From Protonemura montana (taxonomy: Eukaryota > Arthropoda > Insecta > Plecoptera > Nemouridae): 64,000 nucleotides of DNA. Positions 80 through 63,968 of the stretch are shown here, piece by piece. Position numbers and translations under genes: made by a program. The first letter of the stretch is position 1, and each line of letters begins with the position of its first letter. The notes below the pieces were generated by a model. It searched no databases. It saw only the letters and a program-made list of their open reading frames with translations, and had not been told where the DNA came from. The DNA is taken from contig OX387602.1 of NCBI GenBank assembly GCA_947568835.1, positions 26,649,021 through 26,713,020 on the forward strand. The letters are read 5' to 3'.

Positions 80-3000
80 CACCTGCACAGACGGTTATCT
101 TAAGATCTACCTGAAGGGACAAGAGACGACAGAGTCTTACGACAAGTTCGACCATGAGTTGTGCGGGGAGGAGAGTAAACCTGACTTGTTCATGTCGGAC
201 GGACCTCGTCTCGTCATGGTCTTCTCCAGCGGAGAGCTGCAGGGGCGAGGATTCAAGGCAAAATACACGTTTGAGACAGGTACCTACACTCCGGCACACC
301 AAATTACTGGTGTTTCTGTAGCTCTGTCATTGACCTCGCCATTTTATATCAAACCCCTATCTGCAGGCATTTGCTTTAACAATGGGCACTGATTGATCAC
401 GACTTCCATGCAATTTTCTGACCTGCAGAGTACCAAATCCCGGGAACTGCAGCTCCCGACGGAACCTGTACATTTTACTACCGGAGCGAGAGCAGGAAGA
501 AGGGCGAGTTCAACTCGCCGAGATATCCTTCTAATTACCCTAGCAGAACTAATTGTACTTACCAGTTCCTGGCCACGCCAAACGAGCAGGTTACGCTTAT
601 CTTCGATCATTTTAAAGTGAGTATCAGAATTCCGGTTGCGGATTTCAGTATGCCATGTCCCAAAGTTGCAAGTTTGAACGCTTATCACCACGGCCGACGC
701 ACATTTGTCAGGTCCGCGCGGATGCAGCGAATGCGACGACGGGCACGTATGGAGTCGTCACCTGTCAAGAGGACTGGCTCGAGATGTACAATATGTACCG
801 CGACGGCACGGAACAGATGATTGGCAGGTACTGCGGGATGACGGCGCCGGGACCCATCGAGTCCAACCGCGGGGCCGTCGGGATCAAGATTCTCCTGCAC
901 TCCGACTCGGAAGGGGTTTACAGTGGGTTCAAGGCGCATTACGCGTTTGAGGAAGCAAAGTCAATTTTCGGAGGTGAGTGTCGACAATTCGCAAGACGGG
1001 CGAGTGCGGTAATGTTTTGAAATTGTTCACAATTAAGGGTTTCGAATCGCTTGTTGCAGACTGTGGTGGCAATCACAGCAACATAGACTCGGGAGTAATA
1101 GAAAGTCCGAACTTCAAAGAGAATTATGACGGCCCTTCGAAGGGGCTGTCGAGTAAGACTTGTAACTGGTATATCAATGCTCGCCCGAAACACAAAATAC
1201 TGCTCAACTTTGAGGTCTTTGCGGTCGAAGGCGATCCAACAGGTACGAAAAAACTTCGATAATTTCGTAGAAATTTCATAAATTAAAATATTAAAATAGA
1301 TAATTTTGACAACCCAAATCATTAAGAATAAAACTTGCTCTTAAATTGATTTGTTCTCCAATAACCATTTCGATGAAACCATAAACCACGTCCTTTTATT
1401 TAAACTTCCTCATTTCTTACCAATTAAGAGGTTGAAGAAAGAGAATCGAGTAAAATAATGTATTAACTAATTCCTACCGAGATGCAAGTGATTTTTAACC
1501 CCCCCGTTAAAAACTGTGTGCGCCTCGGGCGATCTGGCCATGCTAATCGTTGACGCTTGTGCCAGCGCGTGGGTGTCCCGCCGCCGTGCTGCGCCTTTGG
1601 CACAAGACCCTCGGCACCCCGATCGAGCTGTGCGGGGAGAAGCCAGAGGCCGATAAGTGGCAGTACGTGTCGGAGGGCAGCACCATGCGCATTGCCTTCA
1701 TCGCGGCAGACAAGTCTGTGGGCGCCCAGGGCTTCCGCGCGGTCTTCACCGAAATTGCCGATGGGCCCGACTGCGATCAGTTCGTGTGCTCAAAAAGTAA
1801 TTTCTGCATCGCCGATAAACTGAGATGTAATAAAGTGAGGAATTGTGGAGCCGAGGACACGTCGGACGAAACCAACTGTGAGTTTAAACGTTTGCTTAAA
1901 ACAACAAAACCAATATTCATTAAATTAATTTAATAAAAATCATAATAATTGCTCAAGTAAATTGAAAAATACTACATATTTTTATAAAAAAGAAAACCAT
2001 ATGATTAATTAATAATTTTGCCTATATTTTCTTCATACTTGCACTCTCTTTACTCTGCTCTCGACACGCCCCTGTACATTTCTATTCTCTTCATGAATAT
2101 GCTTGGTATGAAGCCTGTACTTTTTCTCTCACTCGGCTTTTCGCTGTACAGGACCAACTCTCATGAAGTTTAACACTCACTAAAACTCTCTAGCTCTAGA
2201 CATTGCGATAGCCAACAAAACGACCTGACTTAAATCACATTCCATCCGAATACTACGCATGAAAATAATTACCAAAATGTTACCAACGTGAAATGCTCCC
2301 TCGTGGCTCTTTGCATATAACTAACTATGCCTAGTGAATTGAATGTCCTATTTGATTTTTTATTTAAGGTAAGCATGCTAGAGTTGTGCCACCTTCACCT
2401 CTTCTTGCGCCACTCCCCTTAGTGATTGTTGCATTTAGGAAACGAAATAGCGTCTGGTGATTTCAGACTAATTAATGTGTGGTTAGTTTGTGCCGTTTAC
2501 AATGTAAAAGCACCTTCGTTCAATGTTCGTGTTGTTGCTGAGCGCGATATCTGGGAATACATTTAACTAGTTAGTCATGCTCAGGTACACCGTTTTGTGT
2601 ATTCACAAGGACAACGCGAAGACACCAGATTTATTGGGAATACAGGGAAGCATGGGGAAGCAAAGCAGGCTGGAAACATTACAAAAGTGTTTCCTTTTCG
2701 GCCCTAAATCCTGTCCCTTGTGACACTCCGAAGACTGGGCGGTTGCAGTAGTACTCTGGGAGAACCGTGGGGAGTGTGCTGGTGTAATTGTGTGCTGTGG
2801 TTGTTTTTGTGCCGTGCAGGTCTAGCGGAGGCTCCTGAAAACATGGTGCCACGGCTACCTTTACTCTTCCTATCTCTGTGCTTGTTGAGTCTCGTCTCGT
2901 CATGATGAGAGAGCATGTAATAGCACACACAAGTGAGTCTCTCAATATGTCCCTCCTAAAAAAAAAAAAACAGACAAGATACTATACTCTACCGGTTGAT

Positions 3001-3837
3001 ATCGGACCTGCTTTGTCCGCGATTTTGGTCTTGCGTGTTCTACCTAATTATTTGACCTCTCTCTATCTTTTCTCTACATTGCATGTATCTGTGTACTGAC
3101 TTATCCATCTTTCTATTTCCCTTGCTAATGTTCATTTCACGCTCATCCTTTCTTCTCTGGAACAAATATGTGTCAACAAAATATGAAATTTTAAATGCAA
3201 TTTTTATCAGTTAAACTAATTAATAGAACGTTAAAAGTTAAAGACCTGTGTCAAATAAAATCTCTGTTTTGCAACTTGTAAATACTTAAAAGGAAATAAT
3301 TTGCTCCAAAAGCCTTGGTATGAGTTGTTGGAGCTAGAAAATTAAATAACACGTGGAATGCACATTGCGTATAAAAATAACCATAAACATTCAGAGGGGT
3401 TTGCTTGTAAATGATAAAATATGAACAAAACAAAAGTAACGTTGTCATCACAATATAAATCTATAAAATTCCGAGCAAGGCAACTCAAAAGGTGATTTTC
3501 CTAAATATCTACTCATGCCAAGTAGGTACTGGTTGCTCAGAACGCGCTCCAACCCAGAGTGCGTACGCTACAGCGAGCTCTCCTGTAATGTGCGTGGGGC
3601 GATCCTGCAGGTGTGGTGGAACCGCCAGTCGGGACGTTCACCGTCCTGGGCGTGATGCTCTCCCTGTCCGCGGCGTTCGTGCTCGTCTTGTGTGTTTGGT
3701 GCCACCGGAAACGCATGCGGAGGCGTCGGCGAATCCGACGGAACCTCGGCAGGCATTCACAGCTGTCCGGCTCATCGAGGCGCCAACACGTCTGCGACGA
3801 GCTCGGCACGCGTTTCGCCAGCGTCGACAGCGTCTGA
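80..3837 (+). CDS. Sol1: SOL-1-like CUB/LDLa transmembrane protein, 3' part (transmembrane isoform)
   Basis: The 3' part of a spliced gene whose start lies left of the window. Exons by GT-AG sites and phase: 80-279, 429-616, 712-973, 1060-1242, 1566-1877 and 3611-3837, joining into 456 visible residues. The order is the end of one CUB domain (CTDGYLKIYL to YTFET), a complete CUB (CTFYYRSE to HYAFE), another CUB (DCGGN to FTEI), an LDL-receptor class A module with six Cys and the calcium-site DTSDE, one membrane helix (FTVLGVMLSLSAAFVLVLCV) and a short Arg-rich tail starting HRKRMRRRRR. The extracellular part therefore precedes a single-pass anchor. SOL-1 proteins are auxiliary subunits of AMPA/kainate-type glutamate receptors at synapses. 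NETO proteins are the main alternative, but they have two CUBs and at least three are seen here. The ATG at 66 lies in the intron before the acceptor at 78-79 and is not a start. Gene structure is confident; the family name is from remembered similarity. Confidence 0.8.
1878..3610 (+). other. Introns around the alternative last exon of the SOL-1-like gene
   Basis: AT-rich intronic DNA apart from the alternative exon at 2820-2905. If the intron after 1877 is retained, the frame still encodes the sixth LDLa Cys, then EFKRLLKTTKPIFIKLI and a stop at 1931-1933. An A12 run lies near 2948-2960. I see no other supported feature. Confidence 0.6.
2820..2905 (+). CDS. Alternative last exon of the SOL-1-like gene with hydrophobic, possibly GPI-type, C-terminus
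   Basis: A good acceptor (T-rich tract, then gtgcag) ends at 2819. The exon begins with GT, which completes the codon left open at 1877 (T plus GT gives Cys), exactly as the transmembrane exon at 3611 does. It encodes CLAEAPENMVPRLP followed by LLFLSLCLLSLVSS and a TGA stop at 2903-2905. A polar spacer followed by a terminal hydrophobic stretch with no basic tail resembles a GPI-attachment signal; a weakly hydrophobic secreted end is the alternative. AATAAA at 3254-3259 could polyadenylate this transcript. No transcript evidence is available, so the exon is predicted from splice signal, phase and composition only. Confidence 0.5.
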
Positions 3838-3847
3838 GCGAAATCGG

Positions 3848-6738: not shown

Positions 6739-8278
6739 ATGTCCGGAATGAAGCTCTACTCTGTGTCGGATAGTCCCCCAACGCTGGGGGTCCGCATGTT
6801 GCTCAAGATTCTAGACGTCGAACATCAGATCGTACCTGTCGACTTCGGCACCGGAGAACATCTCAAGGAAAGCTATGCTAAGGTAAGGTTAGATCACGAC
6901 CTGGTTCGAGGCTAGCTAAGATTTATTATCAAGATGTTTGACCATGAGAAATTTGATAGGTGCTGATATATAACGTTAAGAAGATTTAAAGTCGAAAGAT
7001 ACCGTAGAGTTCAGGACTCAGGACGTGTGCTTGGTATGGCTTGGCTTGAAATTAGGATAGTCTAGTTTGTTGTCACTGTCACTATTGGTGAGGAAAAAAA
7101 CTATTCACAACAGGGTTTTTGAATGGTTATTTTTTTAAATTAGTACTCAGGTTAGATAGAGTAGAAATGAGTCTAAAAACCATACTGTTGGTGATCGTTG
7201 TAAACTGACTCGACTTCACTGATTACGCTAACAACACTGACTCGACCAATAAGATGATAATACACATGCACCAATCGATCCATACACATCGAGAATAATT
7301 AACAATACACGATTTAAATTTCAGATAAATCCTCAGAAGGAGATTCCTTGCCTTGATGACAACGGTTTCATACTGAGTGAAAGGTGCGTATCTCCCACGA
7401 CGTATGTGAGAGTACAGAAACGTGTTTACGGTACATGCAATTAACTTGTTGTGCTTTCAGTGTGGCGATTCTTCAGTACATCGCCGATAAGTACGCTAAA
7501 AACGACGCCCTGTACCCCAGGGACGCAGTCAAGAGGGCTGTGGTCAACCATAGACTTCTTTTCAACCTCACCACGTACTACAGATACATCTCAGAATATG
7601 TGGTAAGCTACTGACTTCTGTAGACACGTGTAAACCTCACGTGCGAGATGCTACCTTTGATGGAACTGACCTCTGCCGATCTAGACAGATTACAGAGGTA
7701 TAACAGGGGCGATCCATTCGCCCACTGGCTTCAAAACCAGTCCTCAGACTGCAATTTTGATAATATTTTGTATGATGAATGAGTAGAGAGAAAAACAAGA
7801 CGTTAAGTCATTACAAAACCTATTTTTATATTCTAACGACCTTCCAAGCGTGGGTCCACGGCAGGTCATGAGATCTTGCTAAAAAACAATGTATTTCTGT
7901 CTGTGCCCCACACAGATGGCACCCATCTTCTACTCTCACGCCTACAAGCGAACACCCGAGGGACTCAAGAAGCTGAACCTCGGTCTATCAAACTTCAGCA
8001 CCTTCCTCGAGCGAGGAGGGACAAAGTTCGTCGCGGGTGAGAAGGTGACGATCGCCGATTTCGCAATGGTCGCTGCAACAATGTGCCTCGAAGCAATCGA
8101 CTTCCCTATGGCGCGCTACCCCCTCGTGGTCAAGTGGTATGCCGATTTCAAAAACGACTTCCCTGATCTTTGGGTGATCGCAGAGGGGGGGATGTTGGAA
8201 ATCAGTGCGTTTAATAAGAATCCTCCTGATCTTTCTGGACTTAATCACCCTCTGCATCCTCCCATGAAGCATCACTAG
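6739..8278 (+). CDS. Glutathione S-transferase, delta/epsilon-like (GST1 of a tandem pair)
   Basis: Exons 6739-6882, 7325-7383, 7461-7602 and 7916-8278 join in frame to 235 residues, close to the 210-230 usual for insect cytosolic GSTs. Such enzymes conjugate glutathione to electrophiles, including insecticides and lipid peroxidation products. Visible signs are the N-terminal thioredoxin-like domain (KLYSVSDSPPTLGVRM) with the likely catalytic Ser12 before PP, cis-Pro56 in KEIPC, the glutathione-binding Glu67-Ser68, and the helical C-terminal domain with the N-capping motif TIAD (160-163). The class call rests on Ser12 aligning with the delta-class catalytic Ser and on the ADF...YP.V.KWY pattern; a related unclassified insect class is possible. 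The start is the first ATG of the conserved MSG-KLY end, shared with the neighbouring copy. AATAAA signals follow at 8426-8437. Confidence 0.9.
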
Positions 8279-8849: not shown

Positions 8850-10372
8850 ATGTCTGGCGTGAAACTATACTTCGCAGTAGACAGTCCACCTTCCCTCAGC
8901 ATTCGGCTGCTGCTAGAGAAGTTGGGTGTCGACCATCAGATTGTCACCATCGACTTCAATGCAGGCGAACACCTCAAGGAAAACTTTGCTAAGGTAAGTC
9001 TCTGACGCAATCAAACCGACAGGATAGTAGATTTACACCAGACCGATTCGACAGCTTCTTAAAATGGCATTGAAGTATGGACCTTCATCATCAGCACACA
9101 AAGGACGCTGGCCATTTGTGTACTTTTTTTAGTTAAATATTTGATTTGATTTGAATTCTAGTATCATACATGGAATTTATACTTACACATTATATAATAT
9201 CATTATCAATGAACTAGGGCAATGAACTAGTTTGTGTAGCGATAAGAAATTGGGCGGCAATATAAAATGTATCTGATGTTTTCAGATGAATCTACAGAAA
9301 GAGATTCCGTTCCTCGACGATAATGGGTTCTACTTAAACGAGAGGTAATTGACACTGAATAATTGACGAACACCATACAGGGCGCTTAATTAATTAAACT
9401 GAAATAAAATGTTCCCCTATTTTGAACGGGTTTGTCTACCGATCGATACAGACCAGTTTGCTTCTGGCGTCCCAGAGATTCCCCACAACCAATCCAGACA
9501 AAATGGATTACATTTCCTAAACTCAGTCGGGTAGGATGACACTGTTCATTTCTGAGACGTGGTTCTTTTCAGCGTTGCAATACTTCAGTACATCGCCGAC
9601 AAATACGCGAAGAATGACGCCCTCTACCCCCGGGACGCCGTCAAGAGGGCGGTGGTGAACCAGAGGCTGATGTTCAATATTTCCACCTACTACAGCTGCG
9701 TCGGTCAATATGTGGTAATGCTGCGAATAAGACACGTGTTTGCCATCAAAATTTTCAGATGGAACTACAATAATCCAAATTATGCAATAATCCAATACAA
9801 TAATCCACATAATGTAATAATCCACATGCTAGCGTGTGTGTCATCACTTCTTAGCGTTCACAATGCATTTTTGTCTGAATCACATTTTGATGCCATTTTT
9901 TTGTGAACCAAACTCTGACAATTTGATTTGAATCTGACAATTTTAGTCCATATTGATTTCCGAAGTTAAAATTTGAAGCGTGTTTGATGATACTGAATTC
10001 TAGACCTCTTCCTTGTTCCAGCTGGCTCCGATTTACTACTCACACGCGTTCCAGCGCACTCCAGAAGGGCTCGCTAAGCTAAACAACGGTCTCTCCATCT
10101 TTAACACTTACCTGTCGAGAGGAGGCACCAAGTTTGTGGCCGGAGACTCTGTCACGATCGCTGATTTCGCGATGATAGCCGCCACTTCCTGTCTGGAAGC
10201 TATCGACTTCCGGCTGGATCAGTTCCCACTGGTGGCGAAGTGGTATGCGGATTTTAAGAAGGACTTCCCCGAGCTGTGGGTGTTTGTTAACGAAGGGGTG
10301 GTGAGAATGCACGAGTTCTATCTGAGTCCTCCCGATCTCACCGGACTCGACAAGCTTCGTACGACAGCCTAG
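8850..10372 (+). CDS. Glutathione S-transferase, delta/epsilon-like (GST2 of a tandem pair)
   Basis: Exons 8850-8993, 9286-9344, 9573-9714 and 10022-10372 give 231 residues. The first three exons have the same lengths and phases as in GST1 (144, 59 and 142 bases), so the pair is a tandem duplication on the same strand 571 bases apart. The conserved points repeat: Ser12 before PP, cis-Pro56 in KEIPF, Glu67-Ser68, and TIAD at 160-163. Residues 69-97 are identical to GST1, whereas the first and last exons differ much more, including the substrate-side segment after residue 98 (FNISTYYSCVGQYV against FNLTTYYRYISEYV). This suggests a shared glutathione site with altered substrate range (inference). 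The starting ATG is placed as in GST1; a longer open frame over 8714-8992 is in another frame. Confidence 0.9.
9767..9827. repeat. AATAATCC tandem repeat in GST2 intron 3
   Basis: Four copies of [AT]AATAATCCA separated by short AT-rich spacers (units near 9768, 9785, 9798 and 9815). The repeat lies in the intron between 9714 and 10022 and has no counterpart in GST1. Confidence 0.65.
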
Positions 10373-17629: not shown

Positions 17630-17699
17630 TGAGTTTTTAGCGAAACAGTAAGGAAATTTTGGCTTACGTTTAAAACTTCCGCGTGCGAAATCCTCAAGA

Positions 17700-18536
17700 A
17701 TGGCCGCAGCAACGGACATGTTTCGTTACATTTACCTGTGCGGCAACAAGGACGGCGATATTCCATCGACTGACGCCGGAATTTTGCCGCCTTCACCGCC
17801 ACATTCGTACGTGCATCCGTCGGACTCGTACGCGACGTCGCCATACATGGACACCTCACCGCTGTCGTACAACATGTACCCGTCACCGCACTCGCCTCCC
17901 GGCAAGGTGCACAACGCCTACCTCCCTAAACCCCAGTACCATCACAGAAATTTCGACAACCTCTCAGACGGGTGCCACACGCCAAGTCCAGACAGCCTTC
18001 GTTCTGCCAGTCCTACCTCCGACATCATGGACCCCATTCGACAACGGCTCGAGTCCATCAAGCAGTACACCCCCTTGTTGACACCGCAGCAAGTCGATGG
18101 CTCCTTCGAGTTCGTCAGCCGGCAGGGCGACGCCGTCGACGCCAAGTCCCCGAGGAAGAGCGTCGTTGTGGCGAACAGCAGGACAGTTAAGAAAGTCAAA
18201 GTGGAGGAGTCGCGTTACGACGACGAGTTCGATGACGACAGTTTGGACAGTTTAGAGTACGACGACGATGACGAGTGTTTGGACATGGAAGTGGATGGTA
18301 CCGGCAAAAAGGGTAAGAGGCGTTCGAACTCTAAATTGGTGAGTCCGGTGGTGATGAAGAAGCGCCGGCTAGCGGCAAACGCTCGCGAACGACGGCGAAT
18401 GCAGAACCTGAACAAGGCTTTCGATCACCTTCGAAAACACCTCCCGTCGCTAGGCAATGACAGGCAGTTGTCAAAATATGAGACGTTACAGATGGCGCAA
18501 ACATATATGACCGCACTGTACGACTTGTTACAGTGA
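17700..18536 (+). CDS. ato: Atonal proneural bHLH transcription factor
   Basis: An intronless gene of 278 residues. Atonal dimerises with Daughterless/E proteins in the nucleus, binds E-boxes and specifies chordotonal organs and founder photoreceptors in flies. The bHLH domain fills the C-terminus: basic region about 219-233 ([14 protein letters not shown]), helix 1 about 234-249 ([13 protein letters not shown]), loop SLGNDRQ, helix 2 about 257-277 ([21 protein letters not shown]). The protein stops right after helix 2, as in Drosophila Ato. The basic region and [13 protein letters not shown] separate it from neurogenin/Tap and achaete-scute proteins; Amos and Cato are closer relatives and less similar in the loop. 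The N-terminal MFRYIY resembles other insect Atonal proteins. Residues 30-108 hold many SP/TP sites, and 171-199 are strongly acidic, a possible activation region. The first ATG of the frame is the likely start; a second Met is residue 7. Confidence 0.95.
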
Positions 18537-56688: not shown

Positions 56689-59600
56689 TTACTTAGGCCT
56701 GAAGATCTTCCTGGCAGGGTAACTAATCCAGCTGCCAGTGGCCGAATCCTGGCGATTCGTGTTTTCCGACGACGCTGTCCTCTGTAACACGGGCGACGAC
56801 GGGCAGCTCTTGCTCAGCGACGCCGACGCCGACGCTACTTCTCCCCCAGAACCCCCATCTTTCTTGTTGATGTCCACCAGCAAACTTTGTCGGCAAAGCA
56901 GGGACACTGTGTTCATCTTCGGCTTGGTGATGCCTTCCTTGTCCTTGCTCTTACGCATCTTAACCTTGCGAAACTTTGACGTGAGACTGGAGATGCCGAA
57001 CTTGTTGTGATTGTTTGTCTTCTCCTTGTGTGTCCTCGGCAACGAGTCGGTACCGCTTTCTAGAGCGAACGTGTTGTAAGTTTTAGTGTCGACGTGAATC
57101 ATCCCCGCGCTTGCGCTCTTCATCAGCGAACCGTCGTCTTCATCCAGGTCTTCCGGAGTGAACGGGAGACCTTGAGACCCGTAGCTGGACTCGCTCCCGA
57201 CGCTCGCCTGGCTTAGCCTGTTCTTCGTCGTGTCTACAGAGCGAATGGCAGGGTTCTTGATCCAGACAGGCTCCAGGGACACGGACGATGTGGACGGGGT
57301 TGGCGTGTCCTGGTCACTCGTCCAGCTTCTTCCTCCGGGACCGCGGGTCAGGAACTCTTCCTTGGCCTTCTGGATCTTGAGCGCGCGCAGGCGAGTCAGG
57401 GGCGGACTGCCCACGCCCGCGTCCGAACCTCTGGACCTTGAGGTCGACGCCACTGCCGTCACGTCCGATGTTGCGGTAACCTCCGCCGCGACACTCGTCT
57501 TTATGCAGGAGGGTTCGCAGGAGACGGGGTCATGCGGTATCTTGATCTTCAAGTCAGGTTCCAATTTAATTTCCAGCTTGGCGTTGATGACAGTAGGCTT
57601 TGGAAGGGGCACTACCCCGAACGGTTTGATCGAGCCAGCGCTGGAAGATTTCAAAATGCCTCTCCGCTCCACTTTCGCAGGCGATCCTATCTTGTCCCCA
57701 ATGCTCCCTCCAGTAGCCGTCTTGGACAAGTCCGGTGACCGAATCACACCTGCACTGGCGGACTTCTGTACTTCGCCGTGCCCCGGTCGTCCTGTCCGCC
57801 TCCCGCCTTGCTGCAACACCCTCTGCACCTCTTCTTGGTACTTGGTCATCTGCGCGCGCACCCGGCGCTCGGCTACAGGGGACCTCCACGCCACTGGCGA
57901 GCCCGCGCCGCTAGTGGTCACTTCCGGGGACCTGCCTCCGTCCTGCTCCGTCAGCTTTTGGTTGTACTTGGCTATCATCATGCGGATACTGGGCGCCGTA
58001 TCTTTTGCGATCTGCTTGAACAGGTCCCTCCTGCCAGGGCTTGGTGACGGCGGTAATGGGGGGAACCCGAGAGGGGTGGTAGGACGGACTGAGCTCAGAA
58101 GCATCTCCTTCTGAGAGTCAATCTTAATGCTACCATGAGTAACCTCGCCGCCCTCGTCGCGGATGAATCGGGAGAGTTTGCGCTGCTCGTGTTCTTTCAA
58201 GCTCTCCGCCGAAAGCTTCAGTCTCCCGAGTTCAGGACTCGTTCTGAGACCGCGGAACGAGAACCCATTGGCGCCCTCGGCGCCGTCCTCAACAATTTTC
58301 CTGCGCGGCATCGCGGGGGACGCCGACGCCGACCGACTGCGCATTATCATCCACTGAGGCGTCGTCGCGATACCGTTGGGCTTGGACGCGCTCACCTCGG
58401 GCGCTACCGCTGCGACGCCGTCCTCTTCTTTGACCTCGACGTCCTCTTCGACCACATAGCCGATAACCGACGATGTCGTGCCTTTGCTGTCTCGACGAAC
58501 GGGCGCAAAGATTTTGCGAGTCGTGGGGACGAAGATGTTGACAAGGGCAGGAGTCTCTCTGATGCTTTGACTCGATCCGAGGTCAGACACGTCTCTGCTT
58601 GATTCTGTTGCACTATGCTTGATGTTTCGTGAAAGTTGAAAACCATTATCGGAGTCATCAATAAATTTATTATTACTAGAACTTTTTGACGCTGACAGTA
58701 TTTTATCAGTTTTATATCCATTCCCTCCTTCTTTGTACGCTACGTTGGTGTCTGACGCTCGTCTCGTGGAAAACACTTTCTTGCGTATGACAGGACTGGA
58801 ATTCCCATCCTGACTGCACTTGCCATTTCCCGCCAATTTAAGCTGGAGACCAACATTTCCAAGCGACCGCGTGAGCGTAAAACTTCTCAGCACTCCTTTG
58901 TTTTTCTCTACACCTTCATCACTACCACAACGCCGTTTGTCTCCTGCACTCTTCAGTCCACGGCTTGTTACCGTGTGAATCTCGTTTGTCGAGGATGCCG
59001 ACGACGACTGCGCCGAGCAGAAACTCTCCCGAATGTCCTCCCTAGAGGGGCTAGCTAAAAGGTCCCTCTCGACGGTACTGCGCCCCTCGCTCTCCGTCAC
59101 CCTCTTCTGTCGCTGCAGAAATGCAGGGGTGATCGTCACCGAGGTCACTGGTGACGACGGGGCTTCCTTGGCGCCCAACTCATCGGCTTGCTGAGCCGCG
59201 TCTTTCTTAGGAGAAATTTTCACCACGAAGGTAGTCGTTTCGTCGCTGCTAGTTTCTTTTGCTCGTGGCTCTGGGCTGGAGGCGCACAGTAAGCTGAGTC
59301 CCTGCTTTAGTTCCATTACTTTGCTGGTGAGCAGCGAGGGAAGCTGAGACACTTCTGTAGAGGTCTGCCTCGGTAGATACTGTCGCACAGAGTGGAGCAG
59401 GTTGTTGTTTTCCGGCGCCTTAAATAGAAGTAAATATTTCATGGTCTTTGAGACAGTACATTTCTGTGTTTCTGCCTCTTAAGTTTTCTTTTTAAGTTTT
59501 TAATTTTAAGTTTTTGAGTAAACTGAAAATTCCCGATAGATTTTCTATTCGGAATAAATCGGACTCTATAAGTAGTTTCATAGGCATCCTGTGGCCAATT

Positions 59601-62600
59601 TTTTGAAAGCTGCGCGGGCTCACCGTAAACGAGTCAAGCGATGGTGAGGTGGACGACGAGTTGTCTTCGGAGAGGCGTCGTCGCAGATGCCCGGCGCCGC
59701 GACGCCGGTCCTCCAGCTCGAATCGGAGGCTGCGGATCTCGCTGTTTCGCTCCCCCAAAGCTACCTCCAGCCTCTCTGCCTGCAAGTAAAGTTGTGGCAG
59801 GCCAGAGCGATAAAAAACAGACAAAGGAATAGGGCGTTCCATTGTCTTTACTCTTTGATCTGTAGGACTTGACCAATCCAACCATTTGTCATTCTTGTTG
59901 GAAGATATTATTTTCTTGCGAGTTAAAAGGTCTCTTATCATTTTGTTGTCGTTGGTCCATTGGTTACTTTCCAGCAAAAAAATGCAGCTAAAATGCAGCT
60001 AACTCGCAAAAATTAAGTAAACTAAAACCTATCGCTAGCAATGATTTTGATTGTAGAGAAATAACACGGATCTTCAATATACATGGAAATCCCAAATCCT
60101 CTTCTGGTCGAACATATGCGAACTCTGAATGACCTCTTCAAGTAAAACGGTATCGGTTGAAAAAAAAATAGGTAAGCAAATCGCGAGAAAGAGCCATGCA
60201 CTGTAAATAATGGGCTTAAGCTGGGCTTAGAGAGTGAACATAAAAATCACCCCCCACAGTTCCAATCTGTCAATGACTGGTGATTCTAAGGATTTACAAT
60301 CAGAAAATTAGCATTATGTGTGCACTGAGATTTTTACCAATGCCAGCAGTTGTGTGGAGAGTTCCTGAACCATCGTAACAGCGTCTTCTTGTGTCCCGGA
60401 TTGGCAACCCGCAGAACTGCGCGGATCCTGATCCTGGTCCTGATCCACCGATGCCATGTTGGAGTTGACCTGCTGCAGTTGCTTCATCTTCCCCACTAAG
60501 TTCTGAGCCAGAGCGGCTTGCTGCTCAGAATGAACAGCGAAGGAATCCTGCGTAACACCGGACACAAATTCTAACAAAGTGTTTCTTTTTGTCAATTTTA
60601 TTTATAGCTGTACTGGAACCAACAATTACTTGGCAAAAGTTTGGCACCATGACCTGCACAGAGCCGCAAATTTGCAAGGAAACAGAATTACATTTTTGTT
60701 ATAACTTCTACATTTAGCCCTCGATTGAGATCAGTCGGCATCGTAGAAATGCTAATGATCTATCGGCGAATCTATTTCAAGACACATTTGAATCAGTTGT
60801 TTCAGCTTCCTGTGGAACCTAAAAGCTTCACAGCCATTACAAAGTTCTGAACCATTAGGAAAATAGAATATCGAGCCGAGCCAAGATTTGTATTAATCTA
60901 GCGGTTTATGTGAGACTGTAATAAACATTCTATAATTCTACATTGTGAGCGATCAGTCGTGCTTTGCGATTTCGCAAAGATTTTCTTACAACTTTTTGTC
61001 GGCTTTCTCGTTTTTCAAGGGCTACGACCGAGCCGTGAATCTGACCTAGGTCTCACCGCACTGAGACCTTATATCGAGATGGCATAAATCGTAATCCCTC
61101 GACTGCCGTTAATAGATAGCAATTGTATATTACTATTATTAGTATTATTATGAGCTCAATCTTTTAAAGCAATCGTCATTATAAAATGTAAATAGCTTCT
61201 AGTTTGCCGGCTTTCTTTCGTCGCTGCAAGCAGTAATAATTGTAGGACGACACTGGAAGCCAATCGCGTAATTACATTAATCATGAATTGCAGATATCAG
61301 ATTGAATTCTTTACCCCCGAGAACAATTCTATGTTAGAACAATGCTTGGTTGTACACAACAACAAAAAAAGTACCCAATCACAATGGCAATTAGGGAAAC
61401 GAGGCAAACGAACTGCAGGCCACATACGACCGATGATCTTCGAATGACCTGCTTGATTTTTTTCGAAGCGAAAACGACTAACCGTGCATGCGATACTACA
61501 CCCAAACAGTTAAATTAACGAAGCAAAGTAAATCACACTGGCCAATCAGAAAGTTTACGAAGCTAAAATCGACAAATTGCTTAATGGCGTTCTAATGACC
61601 ACCAGTTTGTTTATCATTCACGTTTAGTTTCAATCCATGTCGTACCTTCTGCAAAATTTATTGCCGCTCGTAAAACATTGATCTCCGCGTGATTCAGCGG
61701 CCCTGAGGTACTGTCCGCGCAATTCGAGTACTCACTTTTGAATCCATATGCACCACATGTGCTCACGTTTAGGAACATACGACCAAGATGCACAGACAAA
61801 CCAACACAAACAAACAAATTCGACCCATTTAACGCGTCGCTAGTTTTCCGCAGCCGTAGTGGAGGCACGAAAATAACTGCAGGCGCGGTAATTCTCTCCA
61901 TGTCCTTAAATTTTAATTGTACCCTTCCCCAAGGAATGCCATGCGTCTGGTAATTCTCAGTTCAGCGACGTCGTCGACGTCGTCGACGCCCATTTATTTC
62001 CGTCGCAACGCGCGTCGATGCAGATGAAAGATTTATTGTCACACATTTCCGCGCAACTTCCTTTATTTCTGCGCTAACGGCCAAAGATAAAAACCGCCAA
62101 AGTTTTTCGCAAACATTTCATTCTTGTCTCTCTGTAAGAACTTTTTTTTTTAATCTCATATGCAAAACAATAACAGTCACACTTTTTCCATCACACTTCT
62201 TTAAATTAGTTCTGCAATTTAATTAATATCCTGTCTTAAAGGTAGACACTGTGCTGACAACTTGTCGTGGAAATAAAAACAATGCTATGCGTCCATTAGC
62301 CAGTTGATTTATGACTTCAGATTGCAGCCAGGACTTCGATTTGCGTATCCAATTTGCACGTTTTACAGTGCGCAATATAACCTCCTGACTCTGTCGAACC
62401 CGTTCGTCGTGCCACGGCGCGGTAATTCACCGGCAATCTGCACAGGTTTACGGCGTCTGGCTCGACGATTACCTTAAGCGTCGCTCCTTCTCTGCGGAGC
62501 CGCTCCTGGCGTCGTTCCAGCTCCTGGATCCTGGATCTGAGCGCGTCGACCAGCGCCTCCTGCTCACCCGAGTTGAGTCCCTCAGGAACCACCAGGGACA

Positions 62601-63968
62601 CAGCAGCACGAGCTGCAAGTATTGCCGATTAGTAAAGGTAATGAAAAGAAATGTAATGCTTTCGAGAGAGATATGCAACGAATATTTGTTTAGATCGAAT
62701 GGGTATTTGGACCGCTCAATGTTGCTCTTCATTGGTTCTATCCTATTTTTACGGCTAGGAAATACTTGATGGTGACCCAAAAATTTCGTAGAGCCTGCTG
62801 AATAACTGATTTTCTTGACGCTTACCAGTAGCCAGTTCTTGTATTTCTGTCTCCTCCAATCTCAATCGCTCGATTTCCAGCTCGTGTGTTTCTCGCACAT
62901 GATCAATCTTTTGTTCCAATTCTTCGAGCTCCGTTTCCAGCTTTCTAGGTCAAGAAAGCGCACAGTAACAATGAGAATTGATTTGCAATCAATGTTGACC
63001 GAAAGTCTGCAAGAAATCTCTCACCTGCAAATGTCTCCTTTGATCTGTAGCTTACTTAGAAGGTTTATGTTCTCTTCGATCAACTTGTAGCTAGACTCGG
63101 TCCGCACAGAATCAGTTCTCCTGACCAGTGCAGAGCCATCACGGTCACTCTCACTACAATTTAGCAAGAAAAACCTCTACTAAATTAATTTTGCCAACAC
63201 AAAAAACGCGATCAAACAGTGGTGTGACACATCCCGATCCATAGCCAACCGACCTGCCGCTAGAGTCTATGAGTCGGGTGACCTCCTCAGGAGCGTAGCA
63301 GTAGACAGGGGTGTGCCCCTCGACGGCCGGTGTCGCCTCCAGCAGCGCCGCCGTCTCCACGACGACGTCCTCGACGTCAACAATCACAGCCGCCGGCTCG
63401 TCGTACTCGGCTTCCTCAGTGTCGCGCAGGTGGGGCACCGACGAGGACCGCGTCTCTGGAGGGTGACGCATAAAATAAAATTAGATCCTTTTAAGGAAAC
63501 TCTGGATGGGGCTATGAACCCGATCATTGATCGGTGGCCGATGGCTTATTTTCTGCCAGCACTTAGAATGAAATATCTGTGTTCTACAAAACAGGGTTCA
63601 ATTAGAAATTTAGATTAGGTCTAGGCGATGCAGTCTCCAGTAGCACTTGTGACAATAAATAAAAATCGTATTTATAGAAGACTAGACAAAAGGCATGTCC
63701 TTGTCATTGTGACTTAGCTGTTGAAGAGGGAGCGATGCTGTTGGCTGGTTAAACTTGGTGTTTACCATCTCACATTGAATCGTATGTTGAAACATGCGAG
63801 TCTATTTACCAGCCAACGCCGCCTGCTCCAGACCCTCGACGTCGTTCAGACTGAGGCTAGAAGGCTGGTGAGTGATGGTGGCCCCCAATCCTCCCCCGGC
63901 CAAGTTTGTCACGCTGCTCGCAGACTTGGATCGGGTCAGACATCCGTTTTCGACAGCCTCGGCGCCTC
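56689..63968 (-). CDS. Unidentified large coiled-coil / serine-rich protein, 3' part
   Basis: Eight exons in transcription order: 63810-63968, 63254-63455, 63025-63153, 62826-62944, 62473-62612, 60338-60547, 59624-59779 and the last, 56689-59418. All have GT-AG borders and matching phases, about 1280 residues in sum; the 5' end is beyond the right edge. The first exons encode Ser-rich and acidic sequence (TRSKSASSVTNL; EEAEYDEPAAVIVDVEDVVVE). The next carry coiled coil (KLETELEELEQKIDHVRET; IQELERRQERLRREG; ERNSEIRSLRFELEDRRR). The 909-residue last exon is a basic, Ser/Thr/Pro-rich, largely disordered tail with three KS[AS]SAGxI motifs, three short helical segments and a basic C-terminus (FRKVKMRKSKDK; PARKIFRPK). 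No catalytic or membrane segment is seen. It looks like a cytoskeletal or signalling scaffold (inference); I do not recognise the family. The Met at 59442 is in the intron before the acceptor, not a start. Confidence 0.85.
60548..62472 (-). other. Long intron of the minus-strand gene
   Basis: A 1.9-kb stretch between exons that both border it in phase 0. No additional exon with coding similarity was found. A GACGTCGTC 9-bp repeat lies at 61967-61988. Confidence 0.6.
61967..61988. repeat. GACGTCGTC short tandem repeat
   Basis: Two full units and a partial third, inside an intron of the minus-strand gene. Confidence 0.7.

Follow-up and report, generated by a model that had tools for sequence, protein, structure and literature searches.

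A predicted cassette exon that may exchange a transmembrane end for a GPI-signal-like end in a five-CUB gene of Protonemura montana

Gene Layout and Shared Exons

A window of 64,000 nucleotides from the stonefly Protonemura montana (contig OX387602.1, positions 26,649,021–26,713,020) was analyzed together with the 50 kb upstream of it. Exons were built from splice signals and reading frames, and positions are numbered as in the window, zero and negative numbers lying upstream. The window was found to begin inside a multi-exon gene on the plus strand, of which ten consecutive coding exons were identified from -4464 to 1877. These encode five CUB domains, every one of which exceeds the Pfam cut-off (21.4 bits) with scores of 40.7, 74.8, 52.4, 74.0, and 45.7 bits, and one LDLa module after CUB5. 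Taken on its own, the LDLa module scored 24.1 bits, level with the cut-off of 24.1, and within the 456-aa protein it scored 20.1 bits, under the cut-off. No candidate for a signal-peptide exon passed the filter between -28000 and -4500; a transmembrane (TM) helix followed by a basic tail was present.

Within the window, the exon at 80–279 was assigned by its splice sites and frame to the second half of CUB3 (52.4 bits), the first half of which lies upstream. The two halves of CUB4 (74.0 bits) were found in the exons at 429–616 (splice sites, frame, and Pfam) and 712–973, and the first half of CUB5 (45.7 bits) in the exon at 1060–1242. The exon at 1566–1877 supplies the remainder of CUB5 and the first five LDLa cysteines; the sixth and last would come from either of two continuations further downstream.

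Two Possible Protein Ends

The exon at 1566–1877 ends in aacT|GTGAGT in phase 1 (donor score 9.85) and leaves over a single base, T, as had been claimed in an earlier note on this DNA; this base opens the codon of the sixth LDLa Cys. Also in agreement with that note, good acceptors precede both 2820 and 3611, and both continuations start with GT, which completes a Cys; this Cys was shown to be the sixth of the LDLa module. The AG at 2818–2819 is followed by GTCTAGCGG, giving C LAEAPENMVPRLPLLFLSLCLLSLVSS and a stop (TGA, 2903–2905) after 28 codons, and the AG at 3609–3610 by GTGTGGTGG, giving C VVEPPVGTFTVLGVMLSLSAAFVLVLCVWCHRKRMRRRRR and, at its far end, SVDSV before the stop at 3835–3837.

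The end encoded from 2820 consists of the Cys, a spacer (LAEAPENMVPR), a hydrophobic stretch of 14 residues (LPLLFLSLCLLSLV), and two Ser before the stop. Its best 14 residues have a mean Kyte-Doolittle hydropathy of 2.62, and just the two Ser lie beyond them. The presumed final exon, of which 3611–3837 is coding, closes the LDLa module with the same Cys and continues with a short linker, a TM helix (best 21 residues, mean 2.39 on the same scale), and an arginine-rich, basic cytoplasmic tail ending in SVDSV. The description of one end as a TM helix with a basic tail and of the other as a short, hydrophobic, GPI-like end without a tail was therefore borne out in the sequence. The splice-site quality, the frame, the shared cysteine, the hydrophobicity, and the gene layout were all seen directly.

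Strength of the Splice Sites

Small splice models were made from the gene's own sites (10–11 sites each). With a model built from the 11 remaining acceptors of the gene, among them 3611, the acceptor at 2820 scored 12.9, which was the highest of the 72 AG in the intron and above all 11 of those acceptors; the acceptor at 3611 scored 9.8. A donor, CAA|GTGAGT at 2932|2933, was the best of the 127 GT in 1877–3839 (10.0 compared to 9.85 at 1877); the scores of the gene's ten donors run from 5.65 to 11.05. Together these two sites delimit a predicted exon of 113 nt, 2820–2932, in which the LDLa closure, the GPI-signal-like end, and the stop are followed by 27 nt and the donor. On a paralogue elsewhere in the genome (see below), the acceptor model placed the frame-inferred terminal acceptor first of 46 AG, and the donor model placed the frame-inferred last donor third of 61.

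The scores were compared with a 294-kb set read on both strands, made up of the 50 kb upstream, the window, and 18 ten-kb stretches at round coordinates. The exon's scores were reached by 8 of 32,960 AG (model of 10 acceptors) and by 54 of 33,150 GT, and exactly one acceptor-donor pair 40–350 nt apart had such scores, namely 2820/2932; about 0.23 pairs would be expected over 588 kb of strand, as calculated from the 8 acceptors and 54 donors. A Cys-completing T|GT or T|GC was found after 3,318 of 32,960 AG sites, and a GPI-like end, according to a home-made rule, after 126 of 32,348 phase-1 AG sites, 2820 being included in both counts. The GPI rule and the score thresholds were fixed with the exon in view, and the figures obtained with them are descriptive.

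The alternative that the sites look strong by chance and are never spliced, the gene having the TM end alone, draws on the small size of the models and the post hoc thresholds, and also on looser thresholds, at which the same 294 kb contained 15 pairs (10/9) or 24 pairs (8.8/9), some of them exons of the CUB gene and some having an acceptor that scored higher. In addition, the codon usage of the predicted exon was not coding-like: it scored -6.8 bits over 28 codons, and stop-free intron windows had a mean of -9.9 bits (SD 8.4), 39% of them matching or exceeding the short exon, compared to +43.9 bits over 75 codons for the TM exon. Against chance stands the combination of the top acceptor and the top donor on one 113-nt stretch with the shared Cys and the GPI-like end, and we regard chance as an unlikely explanation.

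A further acceptor/donor pair in the same intron, at 2152–2368 on the plus strand, was of fair strength by its splice scores but weaker, and is probably unused. Spliced onto 1877, it would bring a stop at once (T|GA), and the last LDLa Cys would be missing. To see whether the short exon derives from a repeat or transposon, the genome was searched at the DNA level with 2540–3260, very common words being skipped; the query matched itself alone, and such an origin is not supported.

A Probable Skippable Internal Exon

The earlier note had taken the exon at 2820 for an alternative last exon. This is doubtful, since the top-ranked donor lies 27 nt beyond the stop and 2933–3610 contains no more poly(A) hexamers than chance predicts (2 seen compared to 2.26 expected); for the same reasons, the simplest model is a skippable cassette exon of 113 nt with an in-frame stop, which fits better than a last exon. 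As a terminal exon, the stretch from 2820 would be polyadenylated within the intron, near 3254–3341, and give the GPI-anchored or secreted form, and an AATAAA at 3254 and an ATTAAA at 3341 do lie downstream of the stop. These hexamers are, however, those counted above at chance frequency, and the donor at 2932 points to an internal exon, so that a terminal exon likewise seems unlikely. The exon at 2820 is probably internal, a reading based on the window sequence itself, and we lean, with little more than even confidence, towards a skippable exon 2820–2932 that would swap the TM end for a GPI-signal end.

According to the cassette model, skipping would join 1877 to 3611 and give the TM helix with its arginine-rich cytoplasmic tail. 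Inclusion would join 1877 to 2820 and 2932 to 3611; the same Cys would then close the LDLa module, the GPI-like end would follow, and translation would stop, so that the TM exon 3611–3837 would presumably turn into 3′ UTR.

Possible regulation was explored with a motif scan of 1878–3610 for splice regulators (7 patterns in 3 regions, 21 tests). In these exploratory tests, GCATG was found 5 times compared to 1.4 expected (p 0.007), one copy lying inside exon 2820–2932, and CTCTCT/TTCTCT 8 times compared to 1.8 expected (p 0.003). We take these to be Rbfox and PTB sites, respectively, and their enrichment around the exon hints at regulated splicing, as a lead.

Predicted GPI Anchor and Anchor Switch

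The short form has the anatomy of a GPI C-terminal signal, with an omega region, a spacer, a hydrophobic end, and no tail, as judged by the home-made rule set post hoc. The Ala at the second position past the LDLa Cys is a plausible candidate for the omega site, a further Ala lying at omega+2. Its distance from the folded LDLa module would be two residues, which counts against the GPI reading. So short a distance would fit better with a form in which the exon is included and the ectodomain freely secreted, the hydrophobic end not being used for GPI attachment; activity of the soluble ectodomain is reported for SEZ6, LEV-10, and SOL-1 (PMC9083331, PMC7396870). Secretion would need no such end, whereas an uncharged hydrophobic C-terminus of 14 residues behind a spacer has the look of a GPI signal, and we consider free secretion quite unlikely.

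We infer from these features the use of the exon, GPI attachment, regulation, and a function at receptors. One ectodomain would thus exist in two forms, one with a cytoplasmic tail and one tail-less, lipid-anchored, and possibly releasable. The TM form could contact the cytoplasm, and the choice of end would set mobility, reach, and cytoplasmic coupling. The switch between membrane anchors put forward in the earlier note is accordingly retained as a prediction with partial support: the strong splice sites, the shared LDLa Cys, and the GPI-like tail speak for it, and the "last exons" of its original wording are less likely than a cassette.

Junction-dependent decay generally requires a stop more than 50–55 nt before the last junction, and the stop at a distance of 27 nt should let an mRNA with the cassette escape it. 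A poison exon, the inclusion of which would cut expression of the TM protein with no useful product, agrees with the in-frame stop and the codon usage, but as such decay is not expected here and the Cys and hydrophobic tail would have to be coincidence, we find it very unlikely.

Family Assignment and a Paralogue

The best explanation of the predicted product is a single-pass membrane protein with five CUBs and an LDLa module, of the LEV-10/SOL/Neto class. In the parts of a review available to us (PMC9083331), LEV-10 is described with five CUBs, an LDLa module, and a TM segment, SOL-1 and dSol-1 with four CUBs and a TM segment, no LDLa being named there, and Neto/SOL-2 with two CUBs, an LDLa module, and a TM segment. 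The window gene, with its five CUBs and LDLa module, departs from the layouts of both SOL-1 and Neto/SOL-2 and appears to have that of LEV-10; this assignment is provisional, layout not being orthology.

The best match of the window gene elsewhere in the genome was a paralogue at C1:11.116–11.167 Mb, where at least four CUBs were counted outside C1:11117101–11140000. Three CUB segments, joined by hand and one of them without its middle piece, exceeded the Pfam cut-off; a further CUB is represented by its N-terminal half only, and it was assigned to this gene solely from its order and strand. No LDLa was found from the last CUB up to the terminal exon. Within C1 11165121–11166570 the gene ends in a TM helix with a five-residue tail, KNNKV, encoded by this terminal exon. 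The last intron contained no cassette pair of comparable strength, the best donor scoring 6.98. As far as it was read, the paralogue appears to have the SOL-1 layout, and it would be nearer to SOL-1 in layout than the window gene. The ORFs downstream of its end presumably resemble malic enzyme.

The name "SOL-1-like" given to the window gene in the earlier note thus holds only loosely, five CUBs with LDLa being the LEV-10 layout and the paralogue standing nearer to that of SOL-1. With such a layout and such a paralogue, a receptor partner other than the glutamate receptor assumed in the note is conceivable. This is also a warning against naming every multi-CUB insect gene SOL-1.

Comparison with Known Systems

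LEV-10 of Caenorhabditis elegans shares with the window gene five CUBs, one LDLa, and possibly a type I membrane layout, of which the TM segment was seen here and the signal-peptide exon was not found. Its ectodomain alone is described as sufficient for acetylcholine-receptor clustering, with rescue, and the soluble SOL-1 ectodomain as partly functional, in the available parts of PMC9083331; similarly, the accessible text of PMC7396870 states that soluble LEV-10 and SOL-1 ectodomains work. Both forms of the window protein could bind receptors, because these worm ectodomains are reported active without their membrane parts, SOL-1 partially, and by analogy ectodomain function would plausibly survive an anchor swap. 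SOL-1 and dSol-1 resemble the window gene as multi-CUB receptor auxiliary proteins, but differ in their four CUBs and TM segment, with no LDLa named in the portions seen of PMC9083331. In the accessible literature naming LEV-10, GPI-anchor, and CUB together, the GPI term was used for other proteins.

In the earlier note, SOL-1 was said not to be known for a switch of this kind. A putative GPI-anchored sol-1 orthologue is already in print: a 2026 paper on hygrosensory neurons of fly and mosquito calls fly CG32432 GPI-anchored and gives sol-1 as its worm orthologue (PMC13123972). In the available text of that paper the basis of the GPI call is not stated and no TM isoform is mentioned. CG32432 may have its orthologue in the window gene, in the paralogue, or in neither of them. 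In the first case it would support the GPI exon; in the second, a short tail of the paralogue type might be misread as a GPI signal.

The solved chain of Neto2 (41–368) aligned with the last two CUBs, the LDLa module, and the TM region (query 76–415) with an E-value of 1.8e-19; Neto/SOL-2 proteins differ from the window gene in having two CUBs, not five. Fly Neto isoforms differ at their intracellular ends and are described as type I transmembrane in the parts seen of PMC9083331. Drosophila Loaf (CG6024) is, like the window product, a CUB, LDLa, and TM protein, and is neuronal; its two isoforms have identical coding exons, so that no anchor switch is described in the available text (PMC8205486).

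For the splicing, a precedent among insects is Drosophila Mmp1, in which, according to the accessible parts of PMC5353688, alternative splicing at the 3′ end adds a GPI anchor, as shown with PI-PLC. As predicted for the window gene, one ectodomain has its anchor chosen by alternative 3′ exons; unlike there, the ectodomain is unrelated and the switch is between a secreted and a GPI form. The GPI exon of Mmp1 is 3′ UTR in other transcripts, whereas in the window gene it would be the TM exon. For LEV-10, SOL, or Neto proteins, no splice pair with a GPI and a TM end was found in the literature covered, which lay mostly outside subscription journals.

Anchor switching by splicing thus appears to be of a known kind, and its setting in a gene resembling the multi-CUB receptor helpers to be new, as a prediction. 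Anchor choice by 3′ splicing is also a feature of Fasciclin II and NCAM, the ectodomains of which are unrelated to that of the window gene.

CUB-domain auxiliary proteins determine the place and mode of neurotransmitter receptor action. Tentatively, and with clearly less confidence than in the cassette itself, we propose that an insect clustering protein of the LEV-10 type may obtain two anchors through one cassette exon, perhaps under the control of splicing factors of the nervous system, so that a scaffold with a tail would be made in one cell type and a releasable form on a lipid anchor in another; fly CG32432 may be a relative that retains the GPI end only. If true, such switching between cytoplasmic linkage and a lipid anchor would show how an animal exploits the reported, at least partial, independence of these ectodomains from their membrane ends, and a 113-nt deletion would be a simple genetic handle to separate the function of the tail from that of the ectodomain.

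Neighboring Features

Neither RNA genes at Rfam gathering scores nor tRNAs by ARAGORN were found in the window. On the minus strand, 56692–59478 contained an open frame of 929 codons with no Pfam match at E 0.01 (recorded together with 62320–62628), and a TSC22/bunched-like segment near it scored 25.5 bits, below the cut-off of 30. A helix-loop-helix DNA-binding domain (64 bits) is encoded in an exon at 17652–18533. Downstream of the CUB gene, two similar ORFs for the C-terminal part of a glutathione S-transferase were found in tandem at 7883–8275 and 10004–10369, the first of them as checked with Pfam.
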